Shown piece after piece: positions 1-16,487 of a stretch of 64,000 nt of DNA. Source of the stretch: a bacterium (GTDB taxonomy: Bacteria > Armatimonadota > Zipacnadia > Zipacnadales > Zipacnadaceae); the NCBI GenBank assembly GCA_030603495.1, contig JAUVXR010000001.1:68993-132992 (forward strand), read 5' to 3'. A program made the position numbers and the translations under genes. Numbering within the stretch: the stretch's first letter is position 1; every line of letters starts with the position of its first letter. The notes under the pieces were generated by a model. It had not been told where the DNA came from. It made no database searches and saw only the letters and a list, made by a program, of their open reading frames with translations.

Positions 1-1032
1 GTAGTAGCCTTCGCAGGTACCGATATCAAGTCGCTGGCCCCGCTGCCCTACAACCGGGAGATGTCGCCGGCGCCAGCACCACAGGCCCACGCTATCAGCG
101 GCGACATCCTGGGCCAGGAGGACTGCATCGGCCTGCTCATTGAGTACACCCCGGGCTTTACCTGCGGTATCGGCCTGTATACCTCAGAAGAGGCTCTGCA
201 CTTCCAGGAGCTATGGCCGGCCAACGCCACCCTGGACGCGTTCATTCCCCAGGGCGAGCTGTCCGGCGAAGGCACGCGCTTGAGTCCCTGCCGGTCCTTC
301 CGGCTGGGCGACAAGCGGATCTACTACTACTCATGGGGCGAATACCGCAACTTTGCCTGGTGTCGCTACAACGGGGAGACCTGGTACAGCCTGGCCGACG
401 ATGAAACTGACAGCTACCTGGAAACCTCGATCCTGGAAAGGCCCGAGGGCGGCTGGGGCGAGCTCTACTTCAATCTCGAGCTTAACGACGGGGATATCGA
501 GGTGGAGGTGCTCGACCCGCAAACCGAGCTGCCCGTGGCCGGCTACGGCCGGGACGACTGTGACACCGTGACCAGCGGCCTGGTACAGCCGGTGACGTGG
601 CAAAGCGCTGGTCTGGCCGAACTGACTGATGATTACCTGCGCTTGCGCCTTCACGTGACCCGGCCACAAGCCGAAGATGACTCTCCCCAGCTCTTTGCGT
701 GGGAGATTCAGTCCAAGATTATCCAGTACCCATCGACCTCCGAGCTACGGGTCGAAGGTGAAACCAACCCGGCCAATGTCGTTGATCCCACCCCGACCTT
801 CTCATGGACGTACCACCACACGGCCGGCAAGCAGCAGACGGCGTATCAGGTCATCGTGGCCAGTAGTATGGAGCTGCTGGAAAGTAACGTCGGGGATCTG
901 TGGGACAGCGGCGTGGTCCTAGGCAGCGAGACTAGCGCCACCTACTTGGGCGCAGCGCTTCAGGACCAGCAGACCTATTTCTGGAAGGTGCGCGTGCGCA
1001 GCTCTGAAGGAGTGTGGTCCGAACAATGGTAG
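1..1032 (+). CDS. Phage virion protein with C-terminal FN3-like domain (5' truncated)
   Basis: The frame is open from base 1, so the gene starts left of the window and 343 residues are visible. The first two thirds are rich in acidic and aromatic residues and look beta-rich, with no family I recognise. Roughly residues 245-343 form a fibronectin-III-like domain: a proline-rich entry, FSWTYHH, then AYQVIVASS, WDSGVV, and the strand pair TYFWKVRVRSSEG. This pattern is common in phage decoration proteins and carbohydrate-binding modules. The stop directly follows the domain. It lies just upstream of the head-tail adaptor, where a capsid or decoration protein is expected, and the next gene starts inside its last codons. 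The function as a surface or decoration protein is inferred from the domain and position. Confidence 0.6.
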   Translation, partial: VVAFAGTDIKSLAPLPYNREMSPAPAPQAHAISGDILGQEDCIGLLIEYTPGFTCGIGLYTSEEALHFQELWPANATLDAFIPQGELSGEGTRLSPCRSFRLGDKRIYYYSWGEYRNFAWCRYNGETWYSLADDETDSYLETSILERPEGGWGELYFNLELNDGDIEVEVLDPQTELPVAGYGRDDCDTVTSGLVQPVTWQSAGLAELTDDYLRLRLHVTRPQAEDDSPQLFAWEIQSKIIQYPSTSELRVEGETNPANVVDPTPTFSWTYHHTAGKQQTAYQVIVASSMELLESNVGDLWDSGVVLGSETSATYLGAALQDQQTYFWKVRVRSSEGVWSEQW

Positions 1033-1682
1033 CCTACGGTGTCTTTAGCACAGGAAGCATCAACTCATACTGCAGCGTCGCCCAAGTGCTGGCGCTGCTG
1101 GTGGGCTATGATCTCTCGCGCATCGGCGACAGCCCGGCCATCAACGACCGCATCGAGCAGTTGCTGGGCGGAACCCGCCAGGCCGTGGATACGCTGGCTG
1201 GTCACGACTTCGCTTGGCATGCCGATGAGCAGATAACCGTTGACGGCAGCGGCACTGCTCGATTGCCGCTGGCGCCGCTGGGCATAGTGCCCCTGAGTGC
1301 GGTGCAGCAGATCACGATATCCGGGCGCGAAGTGCCGGCCGACGACTACGTGGTCTACGGCCAAGTCGGCGAGATTCGGCTGCGGCCTTCGGCCAGCATC
1401 GGTAGCTATTTTCCCAGCGGCCTTCAGAACATCGAGCTGGTCGCAGACTGGGGCTACAGCCAGGTGCCGGGGGAAGTGAGTCTGGCCCAGGCCAAGCTCA
1501 CTGCGGCCCAGGTCCTGGCCGAAGCAGCCGGCGAGACCCGCCAGACCGCCTCGGTGCGCATCGGTGACTACGCCGTGCACTATGCTCGCGAGGGCAAGTA
1601 TGGCGGAGTAATCCAGCACTTCGCCGAGGAGGCTGCCGCAGCCCTGCGGCCCTATCGCGGTATGGATATGGCCGCGGTGTAG
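1026..1682 (+). CDS. Head-tail connector / adaptor protein (HK97 gp6-like)
   Basis: This 218-residue protein starts with a helical segment (SVAQVLALLVGYDLSRIG, then NDRIEQLLGGTRQAVDTL), continues with a beta core (LPLAPLGIVPLSAVQQITISG, then DYVVYGQVGEIRL) and ends in a helix-rich tail. That architecture is typical of adaptors that bind the portal ring and receive the tail. The ATG at 1026 is used here. A GTG at 1014 is in frame, but the GAAGGAG at 1006-1012 sits too close to it, while the spacing to 1026 is long, so the start is uncertain. It overlaps the preceding gene by seven bases, suggesting coupled translation. Assignment rests on fold pattern and gene order, not on a database match. 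Confidence 0.6.
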   Translation: MVAYGVFSTGSINSYCSVAQVLALLVGYDLSRIGDSPAINDRIEQLLGGTRQAVDTLAGHDFAWHADEQITVDGSGTARLPLAPLGIVPLSAVQQITISGREVPADDYVVYGQVGEIRLRPSASIGSYFPSGLQNIELVADWGYSQVPGEVSLAQAKLTAAQVLAEAAGETRQTASVRIGDYAVHYAREGKYGGVIQHFAEEAAAALRPYRGMDMAAV

Positions 1683-1715
1683 AATAGCAGCGGCGAGTGG
1701 CTATCATGAAACGGG

Positions 1716-1737
1716 GGGAGCGACATTCTTGTCGCGA
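1716..1737. repeat. Dispersed hairpin repeat, GCGACATTCCTGTCGC family, copy 1
   Basis: GGGAGCGACATTC followed by TTGTCGCGAC forms a small hairpin (GCGACA / TGTCGC). Related copies lie at 22882-22910, 26474-26503 and 28937-28961, the middle two in the opposite orientation. This copy sits in the gap between two phage genes. Confidence 0.6.
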
Positions 1738-1835
1738 CGACCCAGTGGATACTGAACGGCAGCACGGCAACGACTTACACGCACGAAGCCCGCGGCTACG
1801 CTGCGCCATATCCAGGGAGCTTTGGCTATGACTGA
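1725..1835 (+). pseudogene. Possible gene remnant in frame with the adaptor gene
   Basis: After the adaptor stop (TAG, 1680-1682) the same frame continues through a TGA at 1707-1709. It then reads 36 codons with strong G/C preference at third positions, beginning ILVATTQWILNGS and ending APYPGSFGYD before a TGA. No ATG, GTG or TTG opens it; only an ATT at 1725 is available, with a purine-rich GGGGGGAG just upstream. The dispersed repeat at 1716-1737 covers its beginning, so it may be the 3' part of a small gene, or of an extended adaptor, broken by the repeat. Chance coding-like composition in GC-rich DNA is the alternative. Confidence 0.25.
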
Positions 1836-2373
1836 TCTAAGCTTTCAAGAACTACTCAACCAAACCGCCAACCTGTCCCACCCCCAGATCGAAGTGGGCA
1901 ACGAGCTGCAGGTGGCCCACCCTGTCTACGAGCTGCTTGCGGCGGGCGTGGCCATCCGGCTGCGGCCGGTCACCGCTGGACTTGATCGCAGCCTGCTGGG
2001 GCGGTTCCCCCAGACTACGGCCGTGGCGTACCTCCTGCCCACCGATCTGGCCGCCAACGACCGGCTGGCTCAGGTCACCGTGGCAACTGCGCTCGCCGAG
2101 TCAGTACAGGCAGAAAGCAGCGAACTGACGGTCATCTCCAGCTTCGGCATCAGCGTGGGCAGCCGCCTGCACCTGCGGGGCGAGGCAAATTGGGAAGAGG
2201 TCATCGTCGCCCAGGTGGACGGCGAGACAGTACAGTTAGCCGGAGCGCTGAATAACAGCTTCGCCGCTAGCGACGCAGTGGAGGTAGTGATCAGCTATGC
2301 CGTGCTCGGCGTGCTGGATGAATCCGCCGCCAGCCACCACCTCAAGGTCGCCCTCAAACGGCAAGAGGTGTAA
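1828..2373 (+). CDS. Phage head-closure / neck-like protein with C-terminal beta domain
   Basis: The protein has 181 residues. The ATG at 1828 is preceded by AGGGAG (1814-1819) at good spacing; an upstream TTG at 1822 is less likely. The N-terminal part (AVAIRLRPVTAGLD, then AVAYLLPTDLAANDRLA) resembles small barrel head-closure proteins that follow adaptors. From about residue 100 a beta domain reads FGISVGSRLHLRG, EEVIVAQVDGETVQLAGAL, DAVEVVI. The next protein has the same kind of domain near its N-terminus (FSLGDQIRL, YEVVSLVGLTGVQL), so the two share a module. Its position between adaptor and tail tube supports a neck role. No clear family match was recognised. Confidence 0.5.
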   Translation: MTDLSFQELLNQTANLSHPQIEVGNELQVAHPVYELLAAGVAIRLRPVTAGLDRSLLGRFPQTTAVAYLLPTDLAANDRLAQVTVATALAESVQAESSELTVISSFGISVGSRLHLRGEANWEEVIVAQVDGETVQLAGALNNSFAASDAVEVVISYAVLGVLDESAASHHLKVALKRQEV

Positions 2374-2407
2374 GCAATCGCCCCCAGTGTCCGGCGTACT
2401 ATCCTCA

Positions 2408-2460
2408 GCAGGACAGGCCTCGCGTCCGTCCCCTTCGACAGGCGAGACGCCTGTCGTACC
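2408..2460. repeat. Composite two-hairpin repeat (GACAGGC...GCCTGTC family), copy 1
   Basis: AGGACAGGCCTCGCGTCCG is followed by CGACAGGCGAGACGCCTGTCG and TACC, giving one imperfect and one good palindrome. Related copies occur at 3253-3306, 6008-6049, 19756-19780, 24100-24124 and 26358-26412. It lies in the gap between two phage genes, just before the ribosome-binding site of the next one. Confidence 0.7.
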
Positions 2461-2488
2461 GCTGCTCCCTCAGGAGGCTAGTTGATAA

Positions 2489-3166
2489 ATGGACAATATG
2501 CTGCATTACAACGAAATTGCCCGCGCGCTGCGGCTACTATGCCAGAGCGCGGTGGCCCTCGCCGAGGACACCGACGGCACCGACCAGATTTCGGTGGGCA
2601 GCAACAAGCTCTTTTCGCTCGGCGACCAGATTAGACTGGCAGACGACGATACCCCGGCCGAGCAATACGAAGTGGTCAGCTTGGTGGGTTTGACCGGCGT
2701 GCAACTCGACGCGCAAGTCGCCGGGCAGTTCACGGTGGCTAAGAACGCGGTGATTCGCCTGGCGCAGCCGCTGCTGCCCGATCTTAAGTGGGTCGGGCAG
2801 GGCCGCCCGCTGGTCATGCCCCAGCCCCCGGATTTACAGTTTCCCGGCATCGTCGTCGAGCCTGCGGTGCTCGACCAGCCGATGTCCGAAGGAACGAACC
2901 GCAGCGTACGGCAGGACTATCATTACCGGATCTACTACCTGCTGCGGCCCGCCGGGGCGGTAGCCAGCGAGGTTCTACTAGAGGACGCCGGCAAGCTCTT
3001 TGACCTACTGATGCGCGATATCTACCTGGGGGGAAGCTGCTGGTACTCCCAGGTTGTGCGTGTGGATCCCGCCTCCCCCACCCAGCGCCACTTTGCCGAC
3101 CGCGGCATTGAGCTGAGCGTAGTGGAGATGGAACTGGTAGCGCGGCGGCTGGAGCCGATTGCGTAG
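2489..3166 (+). CDS. Phage minor structural / tail completion-like protein
   Basis: The protein has 225 residues. The ATG is preceded by AGGAGG (2472-2477) eleven bases upstream. The N-terminus is helical (NEIARALRLLCQSAVALAE), then comes the beta module shared with the preceding protein (about residues 33-90). The remainder is alpha/beta: YHYRIYYLLRPAG, then VLLEDAGKLFDLLMRDIYLGG and a beta end (GIELSVVEMELVARRLEP). This arrangement resembles small neck or tail-terminator proteins, which have a central sheet crossed by a helix and sit just before the tail tube gene. The terminator assignment is inference from position and shape. Confidence 0.45.
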   Translation: MDNMLHYNEIARALRLLCQSAVALAEDTDGTDQISVGSNKLFSLGDQIRLADDDTPAEQYEVVSLVGLTGVQLDAQVAGQFTVAKNAVIRLAQPLLPDLKWVGQGRPLVMPQPPDLQFPGIVVEPAVLDQPMSEGTNRSVRQDYHYRIYYLLRPAGAVASEVLLEDAGKLFDLLMRDIYLGGSCWYSQVVRVDPASPTQRHFADRGIELSVVEMELVARRLEPIA

Positions 3167-3186
3167 GACTGTGGCGAGCGGGTGGC

Positions 3187-3232
3187 GGCCTCGCCCTCAC
3201 CCCTCTCCCTGCAGAAGAGGGGACAAGGATCT
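3187..3232. repeat. CCTCACCCC-type dispersed repeat, copy 1
   Basis: GGCCTCGCCCTCACCCCTCT followed by a GCAGAAGAGGGG stretch resembles 21505-21543 (GCGGCCTCACCCCTGACCCC, then GCAGGAAAGAGG). The two copies share both arms, and similar pyrimidine-rich repeats are widespread in intergenic DNA of several phyla. Confidence 0.5.
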
Positions 3233-3252
3233 TCTGTCCACAGCAATGTTCG

Positions 3253-3306
3253 GTAGGACAGGCGTCCCGCCTGTCCCCTATCGACGAGCGAGACGCCCGT
3301 CGTACC
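3253..3306. repeat. Composite two-hairpin repeat, copy 2
   Basis: GTAGGACAGGCGTCCCGCCT leads into GTCCCC, then CGACGAGCGAGACGCCCGTCG and TACC. It is the best-preserved two-hairpin copy in the window and lies inside the phage cluster, between a neck-type gene and the tail tube gene. Confidence 0.7.
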
Positions 3307-3380
3307 GAAAGGCAACATTCTTCTGATCGAACAATCACCCTGCGGACACGAGCGTCCGCACTGATAAGGTGGTGTCCAAT

Positions 3381-4289
3381 ATGTCAGTTGCACTTTCACA
3401 CCAAGGCGCCTTCGGCTTCGCTCTGCAATCGGCCAAGGGCAACTACAGTCAGCCTGATACCTGGCTGCCCCTGATGCAAGCAGGCGGTCGCGGCCCGTCT
3501 GACACGATCGAGCTCAAGCACAACTACGTCCCGCTGGACCTGGCCGACGTCAATGAGTACCAGAGCAAGTATTTCTCGGCAGGACAGTGGGCCGAGGGCA
3601 GCTTGCGCTTCCCGCTCCTTCCGGGCGTGGTGGCCAACCTGTTCTCGTGGATTCAGGCCCGCGATAGCTACAACCAGGGCAAGTGGGCCTCGGCGCTGAT
3701 TGACTGCGTGCACGAGGTCAAGAAGCTTACTGACATGAAGGTGCGGCAGGCCACCTTTGACCTGATCAAGGGCGAGCCGGTGATCTGTACGCTGGAGGTC
3801 GCCGCCCTGAAGATGGAAGCCGGCTCCGTGCCCAGCCCCGACATGCCCACGGCGGCACCGTACATATTCCAGGAGGCCACTGTCGAGTTGGCCACCGGTG
3901 GCGGCGCACTGGCCGAGGACGCCAACTGTGAGAAGATCCGCATCGTCGTGGACGCCCTGGTCGAGGATGTTGACGAGGGGCTGCGCCTGGCGGCGACCGC
4001 CGAGCCGGTACAACTCTATAACCTAGCCGGCGTGCGCTGCTGGGGGGCATTCAGCCGTGACTTCGTGGACAACGACGTCTTCGCCGACTTCGCCACCGGC
4101 ACTGAGGCCGCGCTGACTATAACCCTCCAGCGCGGTGCTGCCACCGCCGAGTTGGAGTTGCCGCGCATTCTCTATCAGGCCGATGACCTGGGCCTGCCCG
4201 GCTCGAACCGCCAGCGCATTATTGAGAAGGTGGACTTCCTGGCGCTCGGCAGCACCGACGGGCAAACCCCGCCAATAACACTCACTTAG
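3381..4289 (+). CDS. Phage tail tube protein
   Basis: The protein has 302 residues. The ATG at 3381 follows AAGGTGG (3366-3372) at eight bases; the upstream in-frame GTGs at 3369 and 3372 lie within that site and are unlikely starts. It opens with GAFGFALQSAKGNYSQPDTW, a pattern typical of tube proteins that begin at the inner sheath of the tube. It continues with alternating strands such as EGSLRFPLLPGVVANLF and ICTLEVAALKMEAGSVPSPD, and a repeat-like second half. The gene directly precedes the frameshifting chaperone, as the major tail protein gene does in lambda-like phages. A strong hairpin follows the gene at 4383-4420. The call is based on fold pattern plus position. Confidence 0.65.
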   Translation: MSVALSHQGAFGFALQSAKGNYSQPDTWLPLMQAGGRGPSDTIELKHNYVPLDLADVNEYQSKYFSAGQWAEGSLRFPLLPGVVANLFSWIQARDSYNQGKWASALIDCVHEVKKLTDMKVRQATFDLIKGEPVICTLEVAALKMEAGSVPSPDMPTAAPYIFQEATVELATGGGALAEDANCEKIRIVVDALVEDVDEGLRLAATAEPVQLYNLAGVRCWGAFSRDFVDNDVFADFATGTEAALTITLQRGAATAELELPRILYQADDLGLPGSNRQRIIEKVDFLALGSTDGQTPPITLT

Positions 4290-4312
4290 ACGACATAACA
4301 CTGAAAAACGCC

Positions 4313-4374
4313 TTTGCGGGGAAACCCCTTTCTGAAGAAAGTGGCTTTCCCCGCACCCCTTCCGCAAAGACTTT
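4313..4374 (+). repeat. Palindromic element family A, subtype I, copy 1
   Basis: The element has a long hairpin, GCGGGGAAACCCCTTTCTG paired with AGAAAGTGGCTTTCCCCGC, followed by a tail CCCCTTCCGCAAAGACTTT. The same arrangement occurs at 14841, 19159, 23776, 24022 and 26205. All six copies have the tail to the right. Subtype I (this copy and 19159) differs from subtype II in loop and tail sequence. Confidence 0.8.
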
Positions 4375-4382
4375 TACCTGCC

Positions 4383-4420
4383 GGAAACAAGCCTGGCCAC
4401 AACATGCCAGGCTTGTTTCC
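4383..4420 (+). terminator. Strong hairpin after the tail tube gene
   Basis: GGAAACAAGCCTGGC is repeated as its exact reverse complement (GCCAGGCTTGTTTCC) after an eight-base loop, giving a perfect 15-bp stem. No U-run follows (GTAAGAAAGG). It may therefore act as an mRNA-stabilising or attenuating hairpin between the highly expressed tube gene and the chaperone gene rather than as a classical terminator. Confidence 0.5.
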
Positions 4421-4525
4421 GTAAGAAAGGGAGCACTAGTAGAGCCATCGCAGCCGGGCCCCTCTGGTATACCTACAGGTGCAAGACTGTGACGCTAAAC
4501 AGCCCGCCATCCATCGAGGAAGACT

Positions 4526-4987
4526 ATGAGCCACCGGAAGGAACTCCAGGCCTGGATAATCAGCGCGGCCGGGCCGGAATGCACCCGGCGCTTTGAAGCA
4601 CCTGTTGAGGTGCCCGGCTGGAGCCGTCCACCCTGGATTGAGGTGCGTCCGCTTACCCAGCGCGAGCGCCTTGAGCGCGAAAGCCTGGGCGTCTGCGACG
4701 AGTACTCCCTCGACGACGACGGCAGTATTAAGCGGGTTGTGCGACGCTATGACGCAGCAGCGATGGCCCGATACGACTACGAACACTGCCTGGTGGCATT
4801 CTGCCTGCCCCGGCGCAGTGCACAGGACGATCTGATCAAATGGCGCAAACCGGAGGAGCTCAGCGCCGAGGAGCTACTTGACCTGCTCCCGCCGGAGCTG
4901 GCCGAGTGGCTCGACGGGATCATTGACCAGGTCAACCTGCGCCGCCCAGAGGACCAGCAAACACTGGCAGCGGTAAAAAAAAGATAG
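4526..4987 (+). CDS. Tail assembly chaperone, short form (lambda gpG-like)
   Basis: This 153-residue acidic, helical protein starts MSHRKELQAWIISAAG at an ATG preceded by GAGGAAGACT. It contains a beta part (FEAPVEVPGW, WIEVRPLTQRERL), DYEHCLVAFCLPR, and an acidic helix (SAEELLDLLPPELAEWLDGI). It follows the tail tube gene directly. Tail chaperones at this place in siphophages bind the tape measure protein during tail assembly and are not in the finished virion. The last sense codons are GTA AAA AAA AGA before TAG, so the ribosome crosses a run of eight A (4975-4982). An overlapping -1 frame stays open for another 125 codons, giving a predicted long form (see the 4975-5358 entry). Confidence 0.65.
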   Translation: MSHRKELQAWIISAAGPECTRRFEAPVEVPGWSRPPWIEVRPLTQRERLERESLGVCDEYSLDDDGSIKRVVRRYDAAAMARYDYEHCLVAFCLPRRSAQDDLIKWRKPEELSAEELLDLLPPELAEWLDGIIDQVNLRRPEDQQTLAAVKKR

Positions 4988-5358
4988 CCAGTGCCGCGCG
5001 CAGGTTGGCCCAGGGACTGCCGGTGCCAATGGCCGATCTGGTCGTTGAAGAGACCGGAACGGCGGCGACCCCGGCTTTGCGCGAGGGCCGCGACTTTCAT
5101 AACCAGCGGGAATTCAAACGGCTGAGGCCGGCCTCCCGGGCTCAGCCAATGAGCGCTCCCTTTGTCGCCGAACTGGCCGCGGCAGTGCTAAGTGAACTGC
5201 GCATCTTCGAGCACACCGGCTGCCTGCCCGGTGGCACAAGTTGGTCAGAGCAGCCCGCCTGGCGCGGGGAACTGTGGCAAGCCTACTGGCAAGCGCAAAG
5301 AGACGCTGCTGAGTGGCTCGAACCGCATCACCCACGGGGAGATCAACGATATGACTGA
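4975..5358 (+). CDS. Chaperone T-domain reached by -1 frameshift (lambda gpGT-like extension)
   Basis: The -1 frame is open from the A run through KIASAARRLAQGLPVPMADL to QRYD. Slippage on A AAA AAA (4975-4981) would join 152 residues of the upstream protein to 125 residues of this frame, about 277 in all. That is close to the size of lambda gpGT. The only independent starts are weak: a TTG at 5005 and internal ATGs without a clear ribosome-binding site. This supports expression mainly by frameshift. The segment is basic and helical in its first half (EGRDFHNQREFKRLRPASRA), then AELAAAVLSELRIFEHTGCL. The next gene starts within its last codons. Confidence 0.65.
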   Translation, partial: KKKIASAARRLAQGLPVPMADLVVEETGTAATPALREGRDFHNQREFKRLRPASRAQPMSAPFVAELAAAVLSELRIFEHTGCLPGGTSWSEQPAWRGELWQAYWQAQRDAAEWLEPHHPRGDQRYD

Positions 5359-5920
5359 GGAGACCTCTCTTCTAAGTCGGCACATCGCCGGCCCATATGC
5401 CCGGGCATTTTCTGGGTCACCGTGGTGGTCACAGCGGACGCTGCCGGCACGGCAGCCGATGCCGGCCCCACTGCCCGGCAGGAGTAGTCCTCCTCCCCCC
5501 TCCTTCCTGGCGCCGGCCGCTCCCCAAGCTCACCGATCCCCTCCCGTCGGTAGCTTGAGCGGCCGGCCGCCAGGAAGGGACAGGCAATGCCCTGGTCTCG
5601 ACACAAAACTGCCGAGGGGACCCTCCGCGGCACGCCGATACAGCAGTCATCCGCCCACACCGTCGCCCCAACTCAGCCTCGGCAGGCAGCCGATACTGGT
5701 GAGACCACCCCTTGTGCAGGGCCAGGTCAGAGCAGTACAGCCCAGCACAGCAATAGCCGCGCCGGGAGACATCTGGCACGACTCGCTGCGAGTATCGCCG
5801 GCAGCGGGCGCGGGGGCAGCCGGCCATGTAATGCCACTTGCCGCCCGGCGCTCAGCGTCCGGCCAGTCCGACCTGCCCGAGGACACCGAATTGGACTGGG
5901 CTATCGAATCATCTCGCTAG
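5351..5920 (+). CDS. Proline-rich basic protein between tail chaperone and baseplate gene
   Basis: The protein has 189 residues. The ATG at 5351 overlaps the end of the chaperone -1 frame and follows GGGGAG (5336-5342) at eight bases, which supports it as a real gene. After a short N-terminal segment (MTEETSLLSRHIAGPYARAF) it is low-complexity: SSPPPPSFLAPAAPQ, SHPPTPSPQL and Ala/Arg-rich stretches. It ends acidic (SDLPEDTELDWAIESS). It has no heptad repeats and no membrane segment, so it does not resemble a tape measure protein although it sits in that position. No family was recognised. It could be a disordered linker, a relic of a larger deleted gene, or a scaffold-like factor. Confidence 0.5.
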   Translation: MTEETSLLSRHIAGPYARAFSGSPWWSQRTLPARQPMPAPLPGRSSPPPPSFLAPAAPQAHRSPPVGSLSGRPPGRDRQCPGLDTKLPRGPSAARRYSSHPPTPSPQLSLGRQPILVRPPLVQGQVRAVQPSTAIAAPGDIWHDSLRVSPAAGAGAAGHVMPLAARRSASGQSDLPEDTELDWAIESSR

Positions 5921-6007
5921 CCACAGCAATTGTCGCGCATACCGGGCCACACCGACTTGCATGCTGGGCGATACGACAGGCCTCCCTGGAGTGAGCTTGC
6001 CGAACCC

Positions 6008-6049
6008 TCGCCTGTCCTTCATACCGACAGGCAAGACGCCTGTCGTACC
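6008..6049. repeat. Composite two-hairpin repeat, copy 3
   Basis: GCCTGTCCTTCATACC is followed by GACAGGCAAGACGCCTGTC and GTACCA. The copy occupies most of the 167-base gap between the proline-rich gene and the large baseplate gene; nothing else is recognised in that gap. Confidence 0.65.
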
Positions 6050-6087
6050 AATCAAGGCAGCTTCTTTCGTGAAGGTGAGACCCAACA

Positions 6088-9000
6088 ATGGCGCTTGTTA
6101 ATCCAGGACTAGGCGACCGGCTCGAGGCAGCTGTCAGTGCGGTTCGCGCCAAAGAGGCGGCGGCGGGCGATAACCCAGCGCGACTAGCCCTGAGGAAAGC
6201 GCTGGTCAGCTACGCGCTCTTGATGATTATTGCCGTGCTGTGGCGGCCGGATGGAAGCAATGCGCTGGATTACGACGACGCGCAGCGCACCAGCGACGAG
6301 AACTTCTTCAAGCGCAAGACCGTGCATCTGCTATCGTGGTACCTGGCGCTGCTAGCCCAGGAGCCGGTGCGCACCTGGCCGGAGGTGAGCACGCTCGCCC
6401 AGTGCCTCCAGGCTCTGAGCACCAGCGAGGAGACCGACTGGTCCGGAGAGATAATCGAGCTGGGTGGCAAGCGAGGACTGACTGTAGACCGTACGCACGT
6501 CGCCGGCGGCCTCGCCAGCTTCGTGACGCCCGAGGGGACGGCCTCAGCGTACGTCTACCGCGCGAAGGACCCGGATGTAGCCCTGGACGGAGCGTGGGGC
6601 TACCTAGTTGAAGAGATAAGCGACGAGGGCGAGCTGCTGGGCCGCTATGCGCTGATGGTAGACGACGACTACTGGGGCCGGCGCATCCAGCCGCAAGAGT
6701 TCACCCCCGCTCCCCTGACTGAAGAACTGGTGATGGGCTACCGCCTGGAGGGCCAGATTCTGCACGATGGCGTCCCGCAAGACGAGGCTAATGTCAGCCT
6801 AGAGGTAACACTGGACACCGCCGAGGATGGCGAGGTGGTGTTCTGGGACAGCGAGGAGTACAACCAACTGGTCTGGTCGCAGTCGCTGGAGACGTATGTA
6901 CCCGGCTCAACGGTGCTGGCGCCAATTCGGACCTGGCCGGACGGAATGTGGAGCTTCATCGCACCGAAGGGCCACGGAGCCATCTACCAGCGCGAGGGCG
7001 ACTACCGTGATGATGCAAGCGCGACCAGGTCGCAGCCCCTAAGTCGCTATGTCACGGAGATAAAGGCAGTCTATCGCGGGCGCAAAGCAGAAGTGGCGGA
7101 GGGCTGTCCGGCGATCATTGACATCACCAGCGGCGAGCTGACGATCCAGGCTACGCCCGACGCCTACCTGCGGGTGGGAACGCTGGACGACGCCGGCCAG
7201 ACCTATCAGGTACCACCCTCGGGGACGGTGCAGATTACGGGCCTGCCTGCTGGCGAGCATAGCATCGTCCAGTTCAAGCGCACCGGCGGCGGCCAATGGG
7301 ACCCGTGCTGGGGCTGCCCACGGGTGATCGCTGCGGTCGAACCGGGCGAGACCACCACGGTGCAGATGCCAGCGCTGGAGTACTATTCGTCGTCGGGAGC
7401 GGTTGCATGTGGCCGGGTCTACCAGCGGCCGGGCATCCCGGCAGCGGGCATTGATATCACCATAGTGGACACCGAGTTCGCTGAGATCGTCGGAGTGGCG
7501 GCAACGACCGACGGCGACGGCTATTGGTCGGTGGCGATTCCGCCCGATGGCCTGGGCGGGGACCTGTATATCCTGGACGAGACCTGGGGCAGTCTGCCGA
7601 TAATAGGGTATCCCTATTCCGACGTAGTCCTGGGCGCGCGCGCTTACGCCGGCTGGACGGAAGACCTCAAGCCGGAATGCTGGCGCACCGGCAGCTACGG
7701 TCACCACAACTTTCAGTACGTCCAGGACCAGATACACATCGAAGACAACGACACCGAGCAGAAGTATGCGACTGAGCCGGCCTCCCACGGCGGCTATGTT
7801 ACAATAGAGACCTTGCCCAAGTACAAGTATATTTCGGACGTCCTACAACTGTTGATCTACGGGGCACAACTCAAGAGCTACGCGATTATCGCAGACGAGC
7901 AGGTATTGGATCCCGACTTTCACCTGCGGTCACAGTCGTTCCAGGACCAGCCCACGCTGGCCGGAGATTTCCGCGCTAGCGGCTACTACCCCGAGATGAA
8001 GCTCCTGTTCGGCGGCAAGTTGAAGGCCAACGCCGTGATGCATGGCAAAGAGCGCCTTGATGAGGATCAGCCGGAGGCGGCGCGGGTGGGGCTGGAGTTT
8101 GGCCGGTTGCAGCCCTATATGGAGCTGCGCCAGGCCGACAACGAGACTACGACCTTCAGCGATCTGCTCTGCCCCTATTGCGGCGGGCCGGCCCAGCGCG
8201 ATCCGGGTCAGGCGGTGCCGCGAGGCTTTTGCCAGCAGTGCGCATACGTCTTCGGGCTTCCCCAGGCGATGGACTGCCGCAGTTTCCTACGCAGCCTTAC
8301 GCTGGCCGCCCAGGCCGAACGATACCAGCACCGCCTGGTGGCAATAGGCACGAACGCCCGCAGCCAGCGGCGGGTTGACTACCACTGGCGCCCGGACCTC
8401 TACGACGAGACCGACGCTTTCGCCACCCAGTCCGGACCAGGGCAACTAACCAATGCGCCGCGCTGGGTCGCCAAGCACCTCGACCAGGTCGGCAATGGCC
8501 TGGGGCAGTTCGACGGCGACGAGAGCCCGCCGTACGTTCCGGGCCACGATCTGGCCTACTTCGGCGCGCTACCGTACATTGACCGCGATCTGGGTGTGGC
8601 CCAGTTCAAGCTGGCATTCCCCAGCAGCTACGAGGTGCCCACGGACTTTACGGTCGAGGTTGACTGCCAGCGGATTGACGGCGGGATTGAGACACTGACC
8701 GCCACCATTCCCGCCGGCACGCGCGGGCCGTCGGTACTCGACCCGTTTGGGGAGGTAATCGCGCTGCGGCCTGTGCCCAAACTGCTGGCCGAGGACAAAG
8801 GCGACCCCTACCCGCAGTGCGGTTTCTACCAGGCAGTCACCGATATCCGCTTGGTCGAGCCCGAGACCGCACCGGGTGGCCGATTCACGGTCATCGCCGA
8901 TGTGCCCTTCCTGGCGAATCCGGCGGGCGTGCTCATCGAGCACAACAAGGCCAGCTTTATGGCGCTGCAACTGATCGGCACTTCCGGGCATCCCCATCTG

Positions 9001-9246
9001 TTCGAGGACGCCGTCGGCCAGCTTTTTCTCTTTGACGTGGTGGAAGGCAACATCCGGATGCACCGCCGCTCAGGGCTGACCAGCCCATGGCAGCCGCCGC
9101 GGTGGGTCACCCGGGACGGACAGAGCGACTACCCCTGGGCGGACAAAGACATGCGCGGCGCCATTGTCCTAGCCTATCAGCGCAGTGGTGATAGCGTCAA
9201 GATACTGCGCTCCCGCGACGACGGCCGGAGCTGGGAGGAGGTTTGA
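6088..9246 (+). CDS. Large phage baseplate / tail-tip protein with carboxypeptidase-regulatory-like domain, zinc ribbon and C-terminal Asp-box blades
   Basis: The protein has 1052 residues. About residues 30-50 are hydrophobic (ALRKALVSYALLMIIAVLW). Around residues 440-500 there is a regulatory-like beta fold (ACGRVYQRPGIPAAGIDITI, then TTDGDGYWSVAIPPDG). A zinc ribbon follows at about 695-725, with CPYCGG and CQQC. Near the C-terminus a beta-propeller begins (GQLFLFDVVEGNIRMHRRSG, then GAIVLAYQRSGDSVKILRS), ending in an Asp box, SRDDGRSWEE. Lack of long coiled coils argues against a tape measure role. A single in-frame TGA separates it from the next small gene, which continues the same propeller pattern. 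It probably forms part of the tail tip or adsorption apparatus; exact function is unknown. Confidence 0.55.
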   Translation: MALVNPGLGDRLEAAVSAVRAKEAAAGDNPARLALRKALVSYALLMIIAVLWRPDGSNALDYDDAQRTSDENFFKRKTVHLLSWYLALLAQEPVRTWPEVSTLAQCLQALSTSEETDWSGEIIELGGKRGLTVDRTHVAGGLASFVTPEGTASAYVYRAKDPDVALDGAWGYLVEEISDEGELLGRYALMVDDDYWGRRIQPQEFTPAPLTEELVMGYRLEGQILHDGVPQDEANVSLEVTLDTAEDGEVVFWDSEEYNQLVWSQSLETYVPGSTVLAPIRTWPDGMWSFIAPKGHGAIYQREGDYRDDASATRSQPLSRYVTEIKAVYRGRKAEVAEGCPAIIDITSGELTIQATPDAYLRVGTLDDAGQTYQVPPSGTVQITGLPAGEHSIVQFKRTGGGQWDPCWGCPRVIAAVEPGETTTVQMPALEYYSSSGAVACGRVYQRPGIPAAGIDITIVDTEFAEIVGVAATTDGDGYWSVAIPPDGLGGDLYILDETWGSLPIIGYPYSDVVLGARAYAGWTEDLKPECWRTGSYGHHNFQYVQDQIHIEDNDTEQKYATEPASHGGYVTIETLPKYKYISDVLQLLIYGAQLKSYAIIADEQVLDPDFHLRSQSFQDQPTLAGDFRASGYYPEMKLLFGGKLKANAVMHGKERLDEDQPEAARVGLEFGRLQPYMELRQADNETTTFSDLLCPYCGGPAQRDPGQAVPRGFCQQCAYVFGLPQAMDCRSFLRSLTLAAQAERYQHRLVAIGTNARSQRRVDYHWRPDLYDETDAFATQSGPGQLTNAPRWVAKHLDQVGNGLGQFDGDESPPYVPGHDLAYFGALPYIDRDLGVAQFKLAFPSSYEVPTDFTVEVDCQRIDGGIETLTATIPAGTRGPSVLDPFGEVIALRPVPKLLAEDKGDPYPQCGFYQAVTDIRLVEPETAPGGRFTVIADVPFLANPAGVLIEHNKASFMALQLIGTSGHPHLFEDAVGQLFLFDVVEGNIRMHRRSGLTSPWQPPRWVTRDGQSDYPWADKDMRGAIVLAYQRSGDSVKILRSRDDGRSWEEV

Positions 9247-9249
9247 CCG

Positions 9250-9552
9250 ATGGTGCAGAGCTTATCGTATCCCATAGCTTTCGAGCACAACGGGCTGGTC
9301 TATTTGGTCGGCTACCGCGGTGGAGCACAGTATATCCGGCGCAGCGCCGATGGAGGCACAACGTGGCTGGCGTTCCGCGATGGGGTGACCGAGAGGCTGG
9401 TGGCCGCGCCCTCGGACGCAGATCGGGTGGCGTTGGTGAAGATGGATACACAGGGCTGCCGGCTGGTCGTGGGCGTGCCTAACTACCCCAACATTGATAT
9501 CTACATCTCCGCCGACGACGGCGAGACCTGGGAGCTGGAGGCGTCAATATAA
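9250..9552 (+). CDS. Small Asp-box (BNR) beta-propeller protein continuing the upstream gene
   Basis: The protein has 100 residues in the same reading frame as the preceding gene, from which it is separated by TGA (9244-9246) and one codon. AGGAGG at 9236-9241 lies eight bases before the ATG, so reinitiation can make a separate protein. It contains two blades: NGLVYLVGYRGGAQYIRRSA with DGGTTWLAF, and RLVVGVPNYPNIDIYISADD with GETWELE. Asp boxes (S-x-D-x-G-x-T-W) occur in sialidases and photosystem factors and mark blade turns rather than catalysis. Two blades alone cannot close a propeller, so it probably assembles with the C-terminal blades of the upstream protein or is made as a readthrough fusion. 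Its stop overlaps the next ATG (TAATG). Confidence 0.6.
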   Translation: MVQSLSYPIAFEHNGLVYLVGYRGGAQYIRRSADGGTTWLAFRDGVTERLVAAPSDADRVALVKMDTQGCRLVVGVPNYPNIDIYISADDGETWELEASI

Positions 9553-11846
9553 TGGCACAGCGCGTATATCCGATCGCCAAGGTGGAGCTTCATGAGCCTG
9601 GGCGCCAATACCGCGCGACCTACGACGGCTTCGGGCAGCACGACGTGCTCGCCGACCTGATCCACAACGGCCGCGTCACTGTCCAGTCCACCGACCTGGG
9701 CGCGCTGGGCCGTGCCGGACTCCAGGTGCCTTCGGCGATGCTAGTGGACCACCCCAAGGTCAATGCCGTCCTCGCCCGGCCCTTCTTAGACACCAGCCAG
9801 GCGATCGGTCTGGGGCACTTCACCACCGAAGGGGGGGCGTGGGTAGCCCTGCCCAACCACGGACTCGAAGGCGAGGTGCAGCTCTTCCAATATGATGGCA
9901 CCGCCAACGAAACGACGGGGGCGATAAGCAACTTCACGCTGCCAACTAACCCGGTCTTTGCCCTGTCGCTGTATCGGACCGACCCTCCCCCGGATCACGA
10001 CTGGAGCCAGGCACCGCCGCATACCGAGATTCACTTCGGTGTCGCCGAGACCGATGAGTGGGCGCTGTGCCTGCCCTACGGCGCGCCGATGTTCGTGATG
10101 CGCCGCCAGGGCGGGGTCTGGTACAAGGCGGCCGACTCCGAGAAGTCCGTGAAGGTGCCGACGCTGGAAGGCTTCAGCGCCGGGCAGCGGCTACTGCTGT
10201 GGCTGGCACTGTGGCGCGGGAAGATTGTGATCTCGACCGATGCCTTCGCCCAGGATATCTGGGTCTACGAGGTGCCCGGCTGGGAGCTACGTGTCCGCTG
10301 CGGGAAGATCTCAGTCCTGCACAACGCCGGTCAGTTTATGTTCTCGTTCTTCCCGATAACTATGCCCGCCGCTGTGCTGGACAGTGAGCCGATCGAGACC
10401 GGCTACGCCACCCAGAACAGCACGGGCGAACTGGGGCTTAACTACCGGCAGCTCGCGGTCGTAAACGACTCCGGCATACCGCTACGCGAGGTGCAGGTGA
10501 CCGATACAACCGACACGCGCGAGGATCTCACCACCACCCAGCGGGCCTGGCAGGCGGCGATCGAGCCTTACTTGCACGCGCAGGAGGCCGTAGGGATTGA
10601 TCCGGAGACCGACCAGGCGGTTGATTTCCAGACGATGGTCTCCCCCCAGCTCTTCAGCGTGGGAATCGGGCAGTACCCGCAGGTGGACGAGCTCGGGACG
10701 CTACAGAAGGCGGATATCGCCGGTCACGTTGAGGCCACCGAGGGCGACCACTCCGACCGACTGCGCGGCGTGCGCTATCGCCTGGCGCTGGATAACCAGC
10801 TTGGCCAGTATGCCGACTTAGAAGAGTACCGCCGAGTCAACGTGCAGCTCGGCTGGAAGATGTCGGACGACTCCAATCAGCTTACCTCCACAATCTCCGG
10901 ATATCTGGTCGCGCCGCCGCCGACGGTCTTTGGCGGCGGGGATACGGAGTTGAAGGCAACAGTACTGGACGGAATTGTCCGCCTGCGCGACGAGAAGTGC
11001 GACGGCCGCGCGCCGATCTTCGATAACTGGGCCGTAACAGATGCTTTTCACTGGGTGCTGGACCGCTGCGGGATACCGCGCAGCCAGCAGTCCCTGGAAG
11101 ACACCGGTATGCGGCTGAGCATGGGTGAGCCGGAAGAGCCGTTGTGGGCGGTCGAAGCAGGCCGCTCGTGGCTGGAATTACTCGAGGAAGTGGCCCGGTA
11201 CGACCACGGGGCAGCGATCTTCTTCGATGCCGAGGGGAATTTCGTGAAGGCCTGCCCGCACTGCCGACAGGCCCGCACCGCCGCCAACGTCACGCAGCAC
11301 GACGGGACGGTGACCGGCGCGTGTGGCTCGACGGTATCGTGGTATCTGTACACGCGGGCAGCCGCAGCCCCTGATCCCGCCGAGCCAGGCGAGATCCTGG
11401 CCCTGCGCAAACCGCGGCTGAGCCTGTCAGCGCGTGATTATGTCAACTATGTTGCCGTCTGCGGGCTGGGCAAGGATGGCCGGCCGGTGCGCTCGGTGGT
11501 TTACGATCCGGCGTCACTGTACGACCCGAATTCAGACCAGTTCGTGGGCTGGCGCAAGATGGAAGTCCAGGCCCTGCCCAACTACACCACTCAGGCCGAG
11601 GTCAACCGCCTCGCCCAGGAGATCTTCGCCGAGCGGTCGCGCCGCCCGGAGTTCATCCATGTCCTGACGCCGCTGGAGCCACGAATGACCATCGGCCAGG
11701 TCCTGGCCGTACGCGGCGCAGAGCAAGTGGGTGCCGGTGGGCAGCTCTACCGTATCGTCGCCCTCCATCATAAGGTCCAGCGGCAGCCGGATCGCCTGGC
11801 TGTCACGAGCATCAAAGCCCGCTGGCTGGGTGAGGAGGAAACCTAA
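9552..11846 (+). CDS. Phage tail hub / baseplate-like protein with zinc ribbon
   Basis: The protein has 764 residues; the start overlaps the previous stop by one base. The N-terminal part (about 1-280) is beta-rich and jelly-roll-like (WVALPNHGLEGEVQLFQYDG, then LRVRCGKISVLHNAGQFMF). The middle and C-terminal parts resemble a hub protein: RGVRYRLALDNQLGQYADLE, then WAVTDAFHWVLDRCGIP and a long alternating region. A putative zinc ribbon lies near residues 570-595 (CPHCRQ and GACG). The final domain (VQALPNYTTQAEVNRLAQEI, then MTIGQVLAVRG) is typical of proteins such as gp27-like hubs that recur in tails. Assignment as hub is inference from domain order and position after the tip gene. Confidence 0.5.
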   Translation: MAQRVYPIAKVELHEPGRQYRATYDGFGQHDVLADLIHNGRVTVQSTDLGALGRAGLQVPSAMLVDHPKVNAVLARPFLDTSQAIGLGHFTTEGGAWVALPNHGLEGEVQLFQYDGTANETTGAISNFTLPTNPVFALSLYRTDPPPDHDWSQAPPHTEIHFGVAETDEWALCLPYGAPMFVMRRQGGVWYKAADSEKSVKVPTLEGFSAGQRLLLWLALWRGKIVISTDAFAQDIWVYEVPGWELRVRCGKISVLHNAGQFMFSFFPITMPAAVLDSEPIETGYATQNSTGELGLNYRQLAVVNDSGIPLREVQVTDTTDTREDLTTTQRAWQAAIEPYLHAQEAVGIDPETDQAVDFQTMVSPQLFSVGIGQYPQVDELGTLQKADIAGHVEATEGDHSDRLRGVRYRLALDNQLGQYADLEEYRRVNVQLGWKMSDDSNQLTSTISGYLVAPPPTVFGGGDTELKATVLDGIVRLRDEKCDGRAPIFDNWAVTDAFHWVLDRCGIPRSQQSLEDTGMRLSMGEPEEPLWAVEAGRSWLELLEEVARYDHGAAIFFDAEGNFVKACPHCRQARTAANVTQHDGTVTGACGSTVSWYLYTRAAAAPDPAEPGEILALRKPRLSLSARDYVNYVAVCGLGKDGRPVRSVVYDPASLYDPNSDQFVGWRKMEVQALPNYTTQAEVNRLAQEIFAERSRRPEFIHVLTPLEPRMTIGQVLAVRGAEQVGAGGQLYRIVALHHKVQRQPDRLAVTSIKARWLGEEET

Positions 11847-11849
11847 ACA

Positions 11850-12071
11850 ATGTCTGATGTCGCAGCAATTCGTGAACAGATTGATCGGCGCATCCGGCCC
11901 GGCCAGGTGGCCACGGCTACCGTGCCCACCCGGACACCCGGTTCGCATCTGATCGGCTCAACCCGTACCACCGCCGCTAACCGGTACGACTGGGGCGAGA
12001 CGGAGAACTACCGCTACGCGCTGTACGGACGCAGTAGGTATGGAGCGGGGAGATACCTCGAAGTGGCCTAG
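11850..12071 (+). CDS. Small phage protein of unknown function
   Basis: The protein has 73 residues, begins three bases after the hub-like gene, and has GTGAGGAGG about 12 bases upstream of its ATG. It is hydrophilic, with a short helix (VAAIREQIDRRIRPG) followed by a Thr- and Tyr-rich stretch (TRTTAANRYDWGETENYRYA). No motif or membrane segment is recognised. Close spacing supports co-translation with the hub gene. Confidence 0.5.
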   Translation: MSDVAAIREQIDRRIRPGQVATATVPTRTPGSHLIGSTRTTAANRYDWGETENYRYALYGRSRYGAGRYLEVA

Positions 12072-12142
12072 AAGAAATCGGATGCAGGATACGGGAGACA
12101 GGATAACGGCAAGCGGCGGGAATGTGGCAATGACTTGTTCAA

Positions 12143-12342
12143 TGTAGGGGCGGAAGTTCGTCAGAACTTCCGCCCGCCGTTGCTGCACGTCGCTGCATGC
12201 AAACGAATCCTACCCGCTACAACGGGCGGATGTTTCGCAAGCAACGCTCAACATTCGCCCCTACACACGGCTGCGGCAAACGGCAATCGGGGCATACGCC
12301 TCCGCTAACGCTACGCCGTACAGGAGGGTGCTCCTCCCACAG
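12143..12342. repeat. Repeat-rich gap: TGTAGGGGCG inverted pair, nested hairpin and two mini-repeats
   Basis: TGTAGGGGCG (12143-12152) is repeated inverted at 12256-12265. Inside, GGAAGTTC and GAACTTCC form a perfect hairpin (12152-12171). A 27-base mini-repeat at 12298-12324 (GCCTCCGCTAACGCTACGCC, then GTACAGG) matches the insertion at 23828-23854. GGAGGGTGCTCCTCCCAC at 12323-12340 resembles 26439-26460. No gene is seen between 12072 and 12364. Confidence 0.6.
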
Positions 12343-12364
12343 CCAGATTGACGGAGGTTAGTAT

Positions 12365-13069
12365 ATGCCCACACAGACTGAACATTACGGGCTGGCGGCG
12401 GATGTCGTCACCGACGACTTCGTCCAGCCCGATCACCAAAACCGGGTTGCCGAGACGCTAGACCGGATTGTCGGCAACGTCGTCAAGCAACTGCTTTCCG
12501 CCGGCGTCTATAGCGGCTGGCTGATCCAGGAAGACAAGAGCGTCGCCGCCGGCGCAGGCCTGGTACAGGGCTGCTGGTGCGGCACGGCCACCAGCCAGGA
12601 GATCACCGGCCTGCAAAACGACGCGGTCAATTATGTCTTCGCCGTGGCCAACAGCCAATCGGCCCCGGACGGGGCAGTTGACTTCAGCGCGCAACTGACT
12701 GCCGAAGCTCCCAGCGGGAGTGTCTATCTGGGCAGCCTCGAACTCGATGCCGAGGGCGATGTGCTGGTGGTTGACAATGCCACTGACGCCGACCGGGGCT
12801 GCTTTGCGCTGAAGACGGACACGGTGAGCGGCAGTGGCGAGGTTGAAGCGGTGCCCGGCGGCGCGCAGGTCAGCTTCGTAGTGGACCACACCGAGGTCGC
12901 GAGCTTCCTGGTGCCGGGAGCGATTGAGTTCGAGGTCGAAGGTGACGACTTTGAGGTCGAGCTACGCAAGACCTACCAGAAAGCGCAGTTCGAGGTCATG
13001 GCCACCAACCAGAGCAGCTACCCCCGCGACCTGAGCTATTCCTGGCAGCGCTGGGGCATCATCGAGTGA
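12365..13069 (+). CDS. Phage tail fibre / receptor-binding-like protein
   Basis: The protein has 234 residues and starts at an ATG preceded by ACGGAGGTTAGT. The N-terminus (VADETLDR-like region: NRVAETLDRIVGNVVKQLLS) is helical. It is followed by a beta-rich body with the pattern AGAGLVQGCWCGTATSQEI, AVNYVFAVANSQSAPDGAVD and YLGSLELDAEGDVLVVDN, characteristic of phage fibre and upper-collar proteins that describe an on/off value. The C-terminus is again beta (FLVPGAIEFEVEGDDFEVEL). Its stop overlaps the GTG start of the glycosyltransferase (GTGA), indicating translational coupling. A host-binding role is inferred from the position at the end of the tail module. Confidence 0.45.
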   Translation: MPTQTEHYGLAADVVTDDFVQPDHQNRVAETLDRIVGNVVKQLLSAGVYSGWLIQEDKSVAAGAGLVQGCWCGTATSQEITGLQNDAVNYVFAVANSQSAPDGAVDFSAQLTAEAPSGSVYLGSLELDAEGDVLVVDNATDADRGCFALKTDTVSGSGEVEAVPGGAQVSFVVDHTEVASFLVPGAIEFEVEGDDFEVELRKTYQKAQFEVMATNQSSYPRDLSYSWQRWGIIE

Positions 13070-14121: not shown

Positions 14122-14128
14122 ACTGACT

Positions 14129-14461
14129 ATGACGGGCGCTTATCATTGGCTGGCAGTGTTGCTGGGGAACTCGCCGACAGGAGAATATGTGCTATGCGGG
14201 CTGGCCGGGCTACTGGGGGCGCTGGTCAACGCCACCCTCGAAGGCCGGCCCCTGGTCCTGCCCCGCATGAAGGGTAACGAGCTGCACCTGGGCTTCATCG
14301 GCAACCTGATTATCTGCGTGACGGTCGCGTTCATAGTGGATGGCAGCTTCCAGATGGCCTTCTTCGCCGCGCTCACCGGCACATACATCCTGCGCCACCT
14401 TAAAGCCAAGCTCGAACGGGCCTTCGCGGAGGAGATTGATAGTCTTAACTCGGAGGAATAA
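14129..14461 (+). CDS. Small phage membrane protein (holin-like region)
   Basis: The protein has 110 residues and starts seven bases after the glycosyltransferase gene. It has about three hydrophobic segments: YVLCGLAGLLGALVNATL, LGFIGNLIICVTVAFIVDG and FFAALTGTYILRHL, then a charged C-terminal tail (KAKLERAFAEEIDSLNSEE). The layout of short membrane protein with charged tail before lysis genes resembles holins or phage membrane anchors. No family is recognised. It ends four bases before the next gene. Confidence 0.5.
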   Translation: MTGAYHWLAVLLGNSPTGEYVLCGLAGLLGALVNATLEGRPLVLPRMKGNELHLGFIGNLIICVTVAFIVDGSFQMAFFAALTGTYILRHLKAKLERAFAEEIDSLNSEE

Positions 14462-14464
14462 TAG

Positions 14465-14830: not shown

Positions 14831-14840
14831 AGAACGACCC

Positions 14841-14904: not shown

Positions 14905-15034
14905 AAAGTGGTCGTGGCAGACAGCGTATGGGAGAATGAGCCGCGCCACTACCCCAGAAGGGCTCGACCAACCAGAGATTCATACGGCCAAAACACCATG
15001 AGCGACAACGACCTAAACTAAGGAGGTTATCGCT

Positions 15035-15331
15035 ATGCTCGAGGCATTGTCATCTTCGCTCAGAAATGTGCTGTTGCCAGCCATCAGCACCATCGTCGTC
15101 GGCTTCATTTGTCAGTTAGTACGCCAGTACATCCAGCGTATCAAAGACGAACAGCTCCGTGAGTTCCTGGAGCGGCTGGTCAACGCCGCCGAGCAGATCT
15201 ATGGCCCGGGCGAAGGCGCCGCCAAATACGAGTATGTCGTACGCCAGGCGCAGCAACGCGGCTACCGGATAAGCCGGGCTGATGTCGAGGCCGCAGTCTA
15301 CAACATTAACTCAGCAAAAGGATGTGAGTAA
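15035..15331 (+). CDS. LLH-type phage holin
   Basis: The protein has 98 residues, and the ATG follows a strong AGGAGGTTATCGCT. There is one N-terminal membrane segment (LLPAISTIVVGFICQLVRQY), then an amphipathic region. The C-terminal pattern ERLVNAAEQIYGPGEGAAKY, EYVVRQAQQRGYRIS, DVEAAVYNIN is the hallmark of the lactobacillus LL-H holin superfamily (Pfam family Phage_holin_6_1). Such proteins form membrane lesions that let the endolysin reach the cell wall. The gene lies three bases before a small exported protein and two genes before the amidase, the expected lysis arrangement. Confidence 0.8.
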   Translation: MLEALSSSLRNVLLPAISTIVVGFICQLVRQYIQRIKDEQLREFLERLVNAAEQIYGPGEGAAKYEYVVRQAQQRGYRISRADVEAAVYNINSAKGCE

Positions 15332-15334
15332 ACG

Positions 15335-15694
15335 ATGACCAAGTACCTGGCTACAGTGACGCTTATCCTGGCGCTGTGCGCCGCGGGCTGGGCGGATAAC
15401 TTTCTCGAAGAGGCCGGCGAGGCGATCACTGAGACCGTGGAACTGTCCCTGCTCAGCGGAACGATCGGCTGGGGCGCTGGCGCGTACTGGCCGCTCTATG
15501 AAGTTGAGCAGATCGAGACGACCCTCGGCCCGTTCATTGCCTTCGGCGATCAGCTCATCGCTGCCGGTCTGGGCGCGAAGTTCGCTGTTGAAATCCCTAT
15601 GTTGGACAACTATGTTGACTTTGTGGCTGCCGGCGGTGCGTACAAGCACGATGACCTGACCTTTGAGGTCTGGGTCGGCAAGACTATCAAGTGA
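15335..15694 (+). CDS. Small exported beta-rich protein in the lysis cassette
   Basis: The protein has 119 residues with a clear signal peptide (MTKYLATVTLILALCAAGWA, cleaved before DNFLEEAG). The mature part is glycine- and aromatic-rich with short alternating strands: LLSGTIGWGAGAYWPLYEV, LGPFIAFGDQLIAAGLGAKF, YVDFVAAGGAYKHDDLTFEV. This resembles one edge of a small outer-membrane barrel. It sits between holin and endolysin, where phages of diderm hosts encode spanins, but has neither lipobox nor coiled coil, so it is not a known spanin type. Its start is three bases from the holin stop, so the two are probably co-translated. An outer-membrane lysis role is inference only. Confidence 0.55.
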   Translation: MTKYLATVTLILALCAAGWADNFLEEAGEAITETVELSLLSGTIGWGAGAYWPLYEVEQIETTLGPFIAFGDQLIAAGLGAKFAVEIPMLDNYVDFVAAGGAYKHDDLTFEVWVGKTIK

Positions 15695-15776
15695 GCCAAC
15701 ACAACGGCCAACGATGGTAGGCAGGAGGGATGACTTCCTGCCACCGGCTCGGAACCGAAGGCGCGAGGTACTGCAC

Positions 15777-16487
15777 ATGCCAACTGAACAACAACTATCC
15801 CTCCCGGAGTGCCAGCAACATATCCGGGAAGTGCCGGTCAGCCGGGCCATTCGCTCGGTGATCGTCCACCATACCTGGCGGCCTACCGCCTCCAACTACC
15901 GCGGTCTGAGCACTGTGCGCGCCGTGCGCCAGTATCACATGAAGCAGCGCGGCTGGTCGGACAATGGCTATCACATTATGATCGGCCCCAGCGGTGACAT
16001 CTTCCTGTGCCGGCCCATAAGCCGCGCCGGCGCGCACTGTCGCGGCCAGAACCAGGACTCCATCGGCCTATCCTACATCGCAAACTTCGACAGCGAAGAC
16101 CCCGCGGACTATCCAGGAACCGAGATTGGTCAGCAGGTCGTCGCCGCCCTGCTCCAGCGCTTCTCACTCACCCCCGACGATATCCATTTTCACCGTGAAT
16201 ACGCCAACAAGACCTGCCCGGGCCGGAATCTGCACCTGGACGAATACCGCCATCAGGTCGAACTGCGTACGTCCGAACAAGCCGGCGACATCAAGGTCGT
16301 CCTGCTCCCGGGCAGCCAGGTCATCGCCTGCCGCCCGCGACTGGAAGACGGCACCACCCGCGTGGACCTGCGCCCGCTGGCCACCGCCCTGGACTGCGAA
16401 GTCTACGACCACCTCGCCGACCAGGGGAAAGTCTACCTGCGGAAGAAGGCAAAGACGCTCCGCGATTTGCAGCATCTCTCCGAGTAG
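15777..16487 (+). CDS. Endolysin: N-acetylmuramoyl-L-alanine amidase (PGRP/Amidase_2) with C-terminal stalk domain
   Basis: The protein has 236 residues. The ATG at 15777 follows GAGGT (15765-15769) at seven bases; the frame extends upstream but without a better start. The amidase domain (about 1-160) shows SVIVHHTWRPTASNYRG with a zinc histidine, WSDNGYHIMIGPSGDIFLCR, and the second zinc pair in FHREYANKTCPGRN. It would cut the amide bond between muramic acid and the peptide stem. The C-terminal 65 residues (KVVLLPGSQVIACRPRLEDG, then LRPLATALDCEVYD and KVYLRKK) resemble the copper-amine-oxidase-N-like stalk domain that this host also carries in exported proteins at 19367 and 31339. It is probably the last gene of the phage cluster. 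Confidence 0.85.
   Translation: MPTEQQLSLPECQQHIREVPVSRAIRSVIVHHTWRPTASNYRGLSTVRAVRQYHMKQRGWSDNGYHIMIGPSGDIFLCRPISRAGAHCRGQNQDSIGLSYIANFDSEDPADYPGTEIGQQVVAALLQRFSLTPDDIHFHREYANKTCPGRNLHLDEYRHQVELRTSEQAGDIKVVLLPGSQVIACRPRLEDGTTRVDLRPLATALDCEVYDHLADQGKVYLRKKAKTLRDLQHLSE

Follow-up and report, generated by a model that had tools for sequence, protein, structure and literature searches.

Introduction

Why should a short phage-type gene in a bacterial genome end just past a run of adenines, while the -1 frame stays open for more than a hundred further codons? Ribosomal slippage of -1 on such runs is familiar from lambda and numerous further phages. The locus that raises the question here lies in a stretch of 64,000 nucleotides (the window), for which the initial annotation, made from the letters alone, proposed a programmed -1 frameshift in a tail assembly chaperone and, tentatively, a little-studied phylum as its source. 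The latter was correct, as the source belongs to the class Candidatus Zipacnadia of the phylum Armatimonadota. A search of the open-access literature turned up no report of frameshifting in Armatimonadota. As set out below, comparison of related genomes and structure models make it very probable, in our judgement, that the locus carries a conserved programmed -1 frameshift of the lambda G/GT type, located in a single-copy cluster that is vertically inherited within Ca. Zipacnadia.

Reading frames and slip site in the window

The features at the centre of the question are as follows.

4526..4987, + strand: zero-frame gene of 153 aa, probable G-type tail assembly chaperone (homologues, predicted fold)
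4975..4981, + strand: slip heptamer A_AAA_AAA inside the A8 run 4975-4982 (sequence, conservation)
4985..4987, + strand: zero-frame stop TAG, 3 nt past the heptamer (sequence)
4981..5358, + strand: T domain in the -1 frame, 125 codons plus the stop TGA (selection, homologues)

The 3' end of the zero-frame gene reads GTA AAA AAA AGA TAG, and the heptamer in the A8 run is in frame. After a shift of -1 the reading can continue from 4981 through 5355 to a stop at 5356-5358, so that the predicted fusion would comprise 152+125 = 277 residues. On rechecking, the coordinates first given for the A run, the slip site and the gene end were all exact, and the 125-codon extension and the fusion of about 277 residues were reproduced. 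The accompanying claim that the T frame has no strong start of its own needs qualifying: three candidates exist (TTG 5005, GTG 5023 and ATG 5029), all lacking a Shine-Dalgarno match and none conserved.

Such runs are scarce in this genome, where A7 occurs at just 42 sites on both strands of the whole 2.67 Mb. In frame, A_AAA_AAN was found at the end of the chaperone gene and at one other site among 100,427 codons around homologous loci in 19 genomes.

Gene neighbourhood

The chaperone gene lies within a conserved head-tail-lysis cluster, which is covered by window positions 1-16487 together with L028 9625-20000. Genes for terminase, portal, protease and an HK97-type capsid lie upstream of the window. 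Within the window the following genes accompany the chaperone.

3369..4289, + strand: tail tube protein gene, directly upstream of the chaperone gene (Pfam Phage_tube_2, 3.5e-8)
5351..5920, + strand: low-complexity ORF of 189 aa in the tape-measure slot (position, rapid divergence; without a family match)
6088..9246, + strand: conserved cluster protein of 1052 aa, probably a tail tip or fibre protein (at least 12 genomes)
9552..11846, + strand: conserved protein of 764 aa, tail-protein-like (weak PHROG 1887 tail match, conservation)
15035..15331, + strand: holin-like gene near the cluster end (Pfam Phage_holin_6_1, 1.8e-5)
15663..16487, + strand: Amidase_2 endolysin-like gene, last of the conserved cluster (Pfam 7.3e-16, conservation)

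The tail tube gene had been placed directly upstream of the chaperone from the outset, and the Phage_tube_2 match confirms this; the same order is repeated in other families. The wider claim of a lambda-like G/GT gene order holds on the upstream side, but the full order was not confirmed because no recognisable tape-measure gene follows. None was found after T or elsewhere in the cluster. The ORF after T in the relatives is of low complexity and mostly 140-323 aa, with little in common beyond its C-terminal residues, and in some loci no clear ORF was found there. As a guess, the product of 5351-5920 may serve as a short tape measure; if true, the tail would be short as well.

The structural cluster also includes three glycosyltransferase genes, one GT4 and two of GT9 type (L028 13105-14166 and 16219-17475; window 13066-14121). 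They are present in the window's family and absent from the other families examined.

Identity of the probable chaperone

The label of tail chaperone, as first given, found support in predicted fold and none in sequence. Searches of G/GT against Pfam and PHROGs identified no tail-chaperone family, and the same searches with 14 fusion sequences gave isolated weak matches only. Profile comparison with lambda gpG and gpT yielded no match, and a PDB sequence search with the chaperone gave no convincing one. The AlphaFold model of G (pLDDT 76) matched one solved structure best, the HK97 tail assembly chaperone 2OB9, with 93 residues aligned at 6% identity and an rmsd of 5.6. The Z score was 5.6, well apart from the next row at only 2.3, yet below 8, at which the score alone would demonstrate a common fold. 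A Foldseek search of the model against the PDB returned nothing significant. Among viral structure models (BFVD), matches had E values of 6e-4 to 1 and included several proteins named as phage tail chaperones, mostly weak singly; the best match (6e-4) was to an unnamed protein. A 277-aa tape measure chaperone of Salmonella phage Shivani (A0A0A7TXI3) matched with an E value of 1.4e-2, a probability of 0.98 and 12% identity, and further matches were to tail assembly chaperones of ctsDY37 and HHTV-2 and to Mu FS-gp41. Because these fold matches coincide with a tail tube gene directly upstream, the G part is a probable tail assembly chaperone. The model of the T domain was poor (pLDDT 58).

Conservation of the slip site

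A profile of the fusion was run against 46 genomes of the class Ca. Zipacnadia and matched 28 of them. Both frames, with an in-frame -1 slip heptamer at their junction, were found in 26 genomes, distributed over six families, two of which lie outside the window's order. The heptamer was A_AAA_AAN in 24 of these loci (19 A_AAA_AAA, 2 A_AAA_AAG and 3 A_AAA_AAC) and G_GGA_AAA, likewise a canonical -1 site, in the other 2. In G041, whose family lies outside the order, the junction reads GTA AAA AAA TGC TGA. The zero-frame stop follows the heptamer by 0-6 nt, with the exceptions of L016 and L019. Alignment of the homologous clusters had been put forward as a check on the frameshift, and in these 26 loci a slip heptamer and the -1 frame are kept together. 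Since nearly all relatives that bear the gene retain the slip site, the frameshift is very probably real.

A few genomes depart from this pattern. In G023 (L027) both domains are encoded in one in-frame ORF that lacks a slip site and part of the G domain, and in G003 a single stop interrupts T. In G009 (L110 18340-19200) all that is left of the chaperone gene is a remnant of T, and the capsid gene of that cluster is disrupted as well; the cluster appears to be in decay in this lineage. The fused ORF of G023, the decayed region of G009 and the proneness of homopolymers to error could suggest that the split in the window is itself an artefact of assembly or sequencing, or a sign of gene decay. 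We regard this as the least probable explanation, to be given next to no weight, as the split is common to 26 genomes, different sequencing projects among them, the run varies in length (7, 8 or 9 A, or G3A4) while the stop nearly always falls within 6 nt, and both frames are under purifying selection.

The variation of the run also bears on transcription. With 7-9 A in most loci, RNA polymerase could slip on the run and gain or lose A residues, so that the changed transcripts would encode the fusion. However, the sister genomes G018 and G027 carry G_GGA_AAA with the frames unchanged, while G030 retains A_AAA_AAA; G3A4 is no long homopolymer, several other loci have just seven A, and the -1 heptamer is always in the correct phase. 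The swap to G_GGA_AAA fits tandem tRNA slippage and disfavours transcriptional slippage, because the latter needs long homopolymers, and slippage of the polymerase is accordingly thought very improbable.

Selection on the slip codons and the T frame

Wherever the aligned loci have Lys at the slip site it is encoded by AAA, in 24/24 and 22/22 cases for the two codons; these figures are counts and not probabilities, because related sequences are not independent. AAA makes up 2-42% of the Lys codons in these loci. The two slip Lys columns were the only invariant ones among 30 conserved codon columns in G; unlike them, other conserved codons in the same related sequences do vary.

Downstream of the slip site, pairwise dN/dS for T in the -1 frame was 0.14-0.59, close to the range for G (0.07-0.50). 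In loci with an uninterrupted T frame that frame contains no stops, whereas the other two frames of the same strand contain 1-9 each. From these comparisons the -1 frame is judged to be under purifying selection and to evolve as protein.

A protein-coding T frame might be translated separately, by re-initiation or from one of its own weak starts (TTG 5005, GTG 5023 or ATG 5029), with the A run incidental. The window and four relatives share an ATG at T codon 16, and in G041 an ATG overlaps the slip site. Across the relatives, however, no conserved T start codon was found, Shine-Dalgarno matches for such starts are rare and scattered, and in L012-L014 the sole candidate is a TTG at the conserved motif itself. 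Separate translation would also leave the invariant AAA AAA codons and the swap to G_GGA_AAA unexplained, and it is considered a very slight prospect beside a fusion made by slippage.

Stimulatory elements were also sought. Neither single-sequence z-scores nor consensus folds revealed a consistent stimulatory RNA structure downstream of the slip site: the z-scores scatter about zero, with only L018 reaching -3.5 (80 nt), and the consensus folds were no better than column shuffles. A Shine-Dalgarno-like GGAGG lies 5' of the slip site in L011-L014, and not generally.

Proposed mechanism

By analogy with lambda, most translation would end at the TAG at 4985 and yield the G-type protein of 153 aa. 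A minority of ribosomes, carrying tRNA-Lys on AAA AAA in both the P and the A site, would slip by -1 on A_AAA_AAA and continue in the -1 frame to 5356, yielding a 277-aa GT-type protein that would consist of the chaperone domain common with G and an added T domain. A zero-frame stop close to a slip site may aid slippage. On the lambda model, the tape-measure protein would be coated by the G part and tail tube subunits would be brought in by the T part, and the slip would set the G:GT ratio for tail assembly. The occurrence of slippage, its rate, the roles of both products and the identity of their client are inferred.

Inheritance and nature of the host element

The conserved block from terminase to endolysin (C20:58624 to 85479) measures about 27 kb and has the same gene order across families. 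Capsid and terminase genes are present in one copy per genome in the order, apart from copies split into pieces. In the capsid tree the genomes group by host family in as few changes as possible, and the trees of terminase and GT come close to this; in the single-gene RecA tree itself, family f1 is not a single clade. The identities of capsid and RecA are correlated (r = 0.68), and host genes downstream of the cluster are syntenic in G000, G004 and G006, within the genus. No relatives were found among 2.9 million viral contigs (IMG/VR) and the INPHARED phages, in scans that rely on short conserved peptides and thus reach close relatives only. The single copy, the host-following trees, the RecA correlation, the synteny and this lack of viral relatives together make vertical inheritance of the cluster well supported.

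Two side observations belong here. The phage proteins of G035 (L013) and G040 (L012) are identical or nearly so while their RecA differ; a mis-binned contig or a recent transfer is possible. Also, some 3 kb upstream of the cluster the window's genome has a tyrosine recombinase gene, which may be of the host Xer type or a phage integrase (L028 5740-6663, minus strand).

Genes for integration or replication are absent from the conserved block. Given its single copy, its vertical inheritance and its synteny within the genus, the cluster appears less likely to be an ordinary prophage than a domesticated or gene-transfer-agent-like element. A more specific proposal, that the frameshift serves the tail particle of such an element and that G/GT acts there on a short, disordered and fast-evolving tape measure instead of a long helical one, is speculative and, on balance, rather doubtful.

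Comparison with known systems

The closest parallel is the programmed -1 frameshift of lambda gpG/gpGT (Levin 1993; Xu 2004, 2013, 2014, as cited in PMC5009743). There, the tape measure is the binding partner of gpG and of the G part of gpGT, and the major tail protein that of the T domain (reviewed in PMC5009743). Common to both systems are a short chaperone gene right after the tail tube gene, a heptamer at its end and a -1-frame T domain without a conserved start. The fusions are also about equal in size, a likeness already pointed out in the initial annotation for the product of about 277 residues. In contrast, sequence similarity of lambda gpG and gpT to the Zipacnadia pair is not detectable, and the heptamer is A_AAA_AAA in the window and G_GGA_AAG in lambda. 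The Zipacnadia slip site also differs from that of lambda in lying within a few nucleotides of the stop, and no recognisable tape-measure gene adjoins it.

Among other chaperones, that of HK97 (2OB9) resembles the G model as its best solved match and differs in its low identity and high rmsd. The Shivani chaperone shares with the Zipacnadia fusion a long form of 277 aa and differs at 12% identity; its phage is T5-like.

The G/GT recoding rule is thus extended to Armatimonadota, with unusually clean comparative evidence in the replacement of the slip site in one subclade and the fusion of the frames in one lineage. Retention of the mechanism in an element passed on with its host suggests continuing selection on tail assembly, and makes a new gene-transfer-agent-like system a testable idea. 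Like the Zipacnadia cluster, gene transfer agents of the RcGTA kind are head-tail clusters present in one copy and transmitted along with the host genome, the likeness here being one of cluster make-up and inheritance. The Zipacnadia cluster differs from RcGTA in also bearing a holin and an endolysin at its end.
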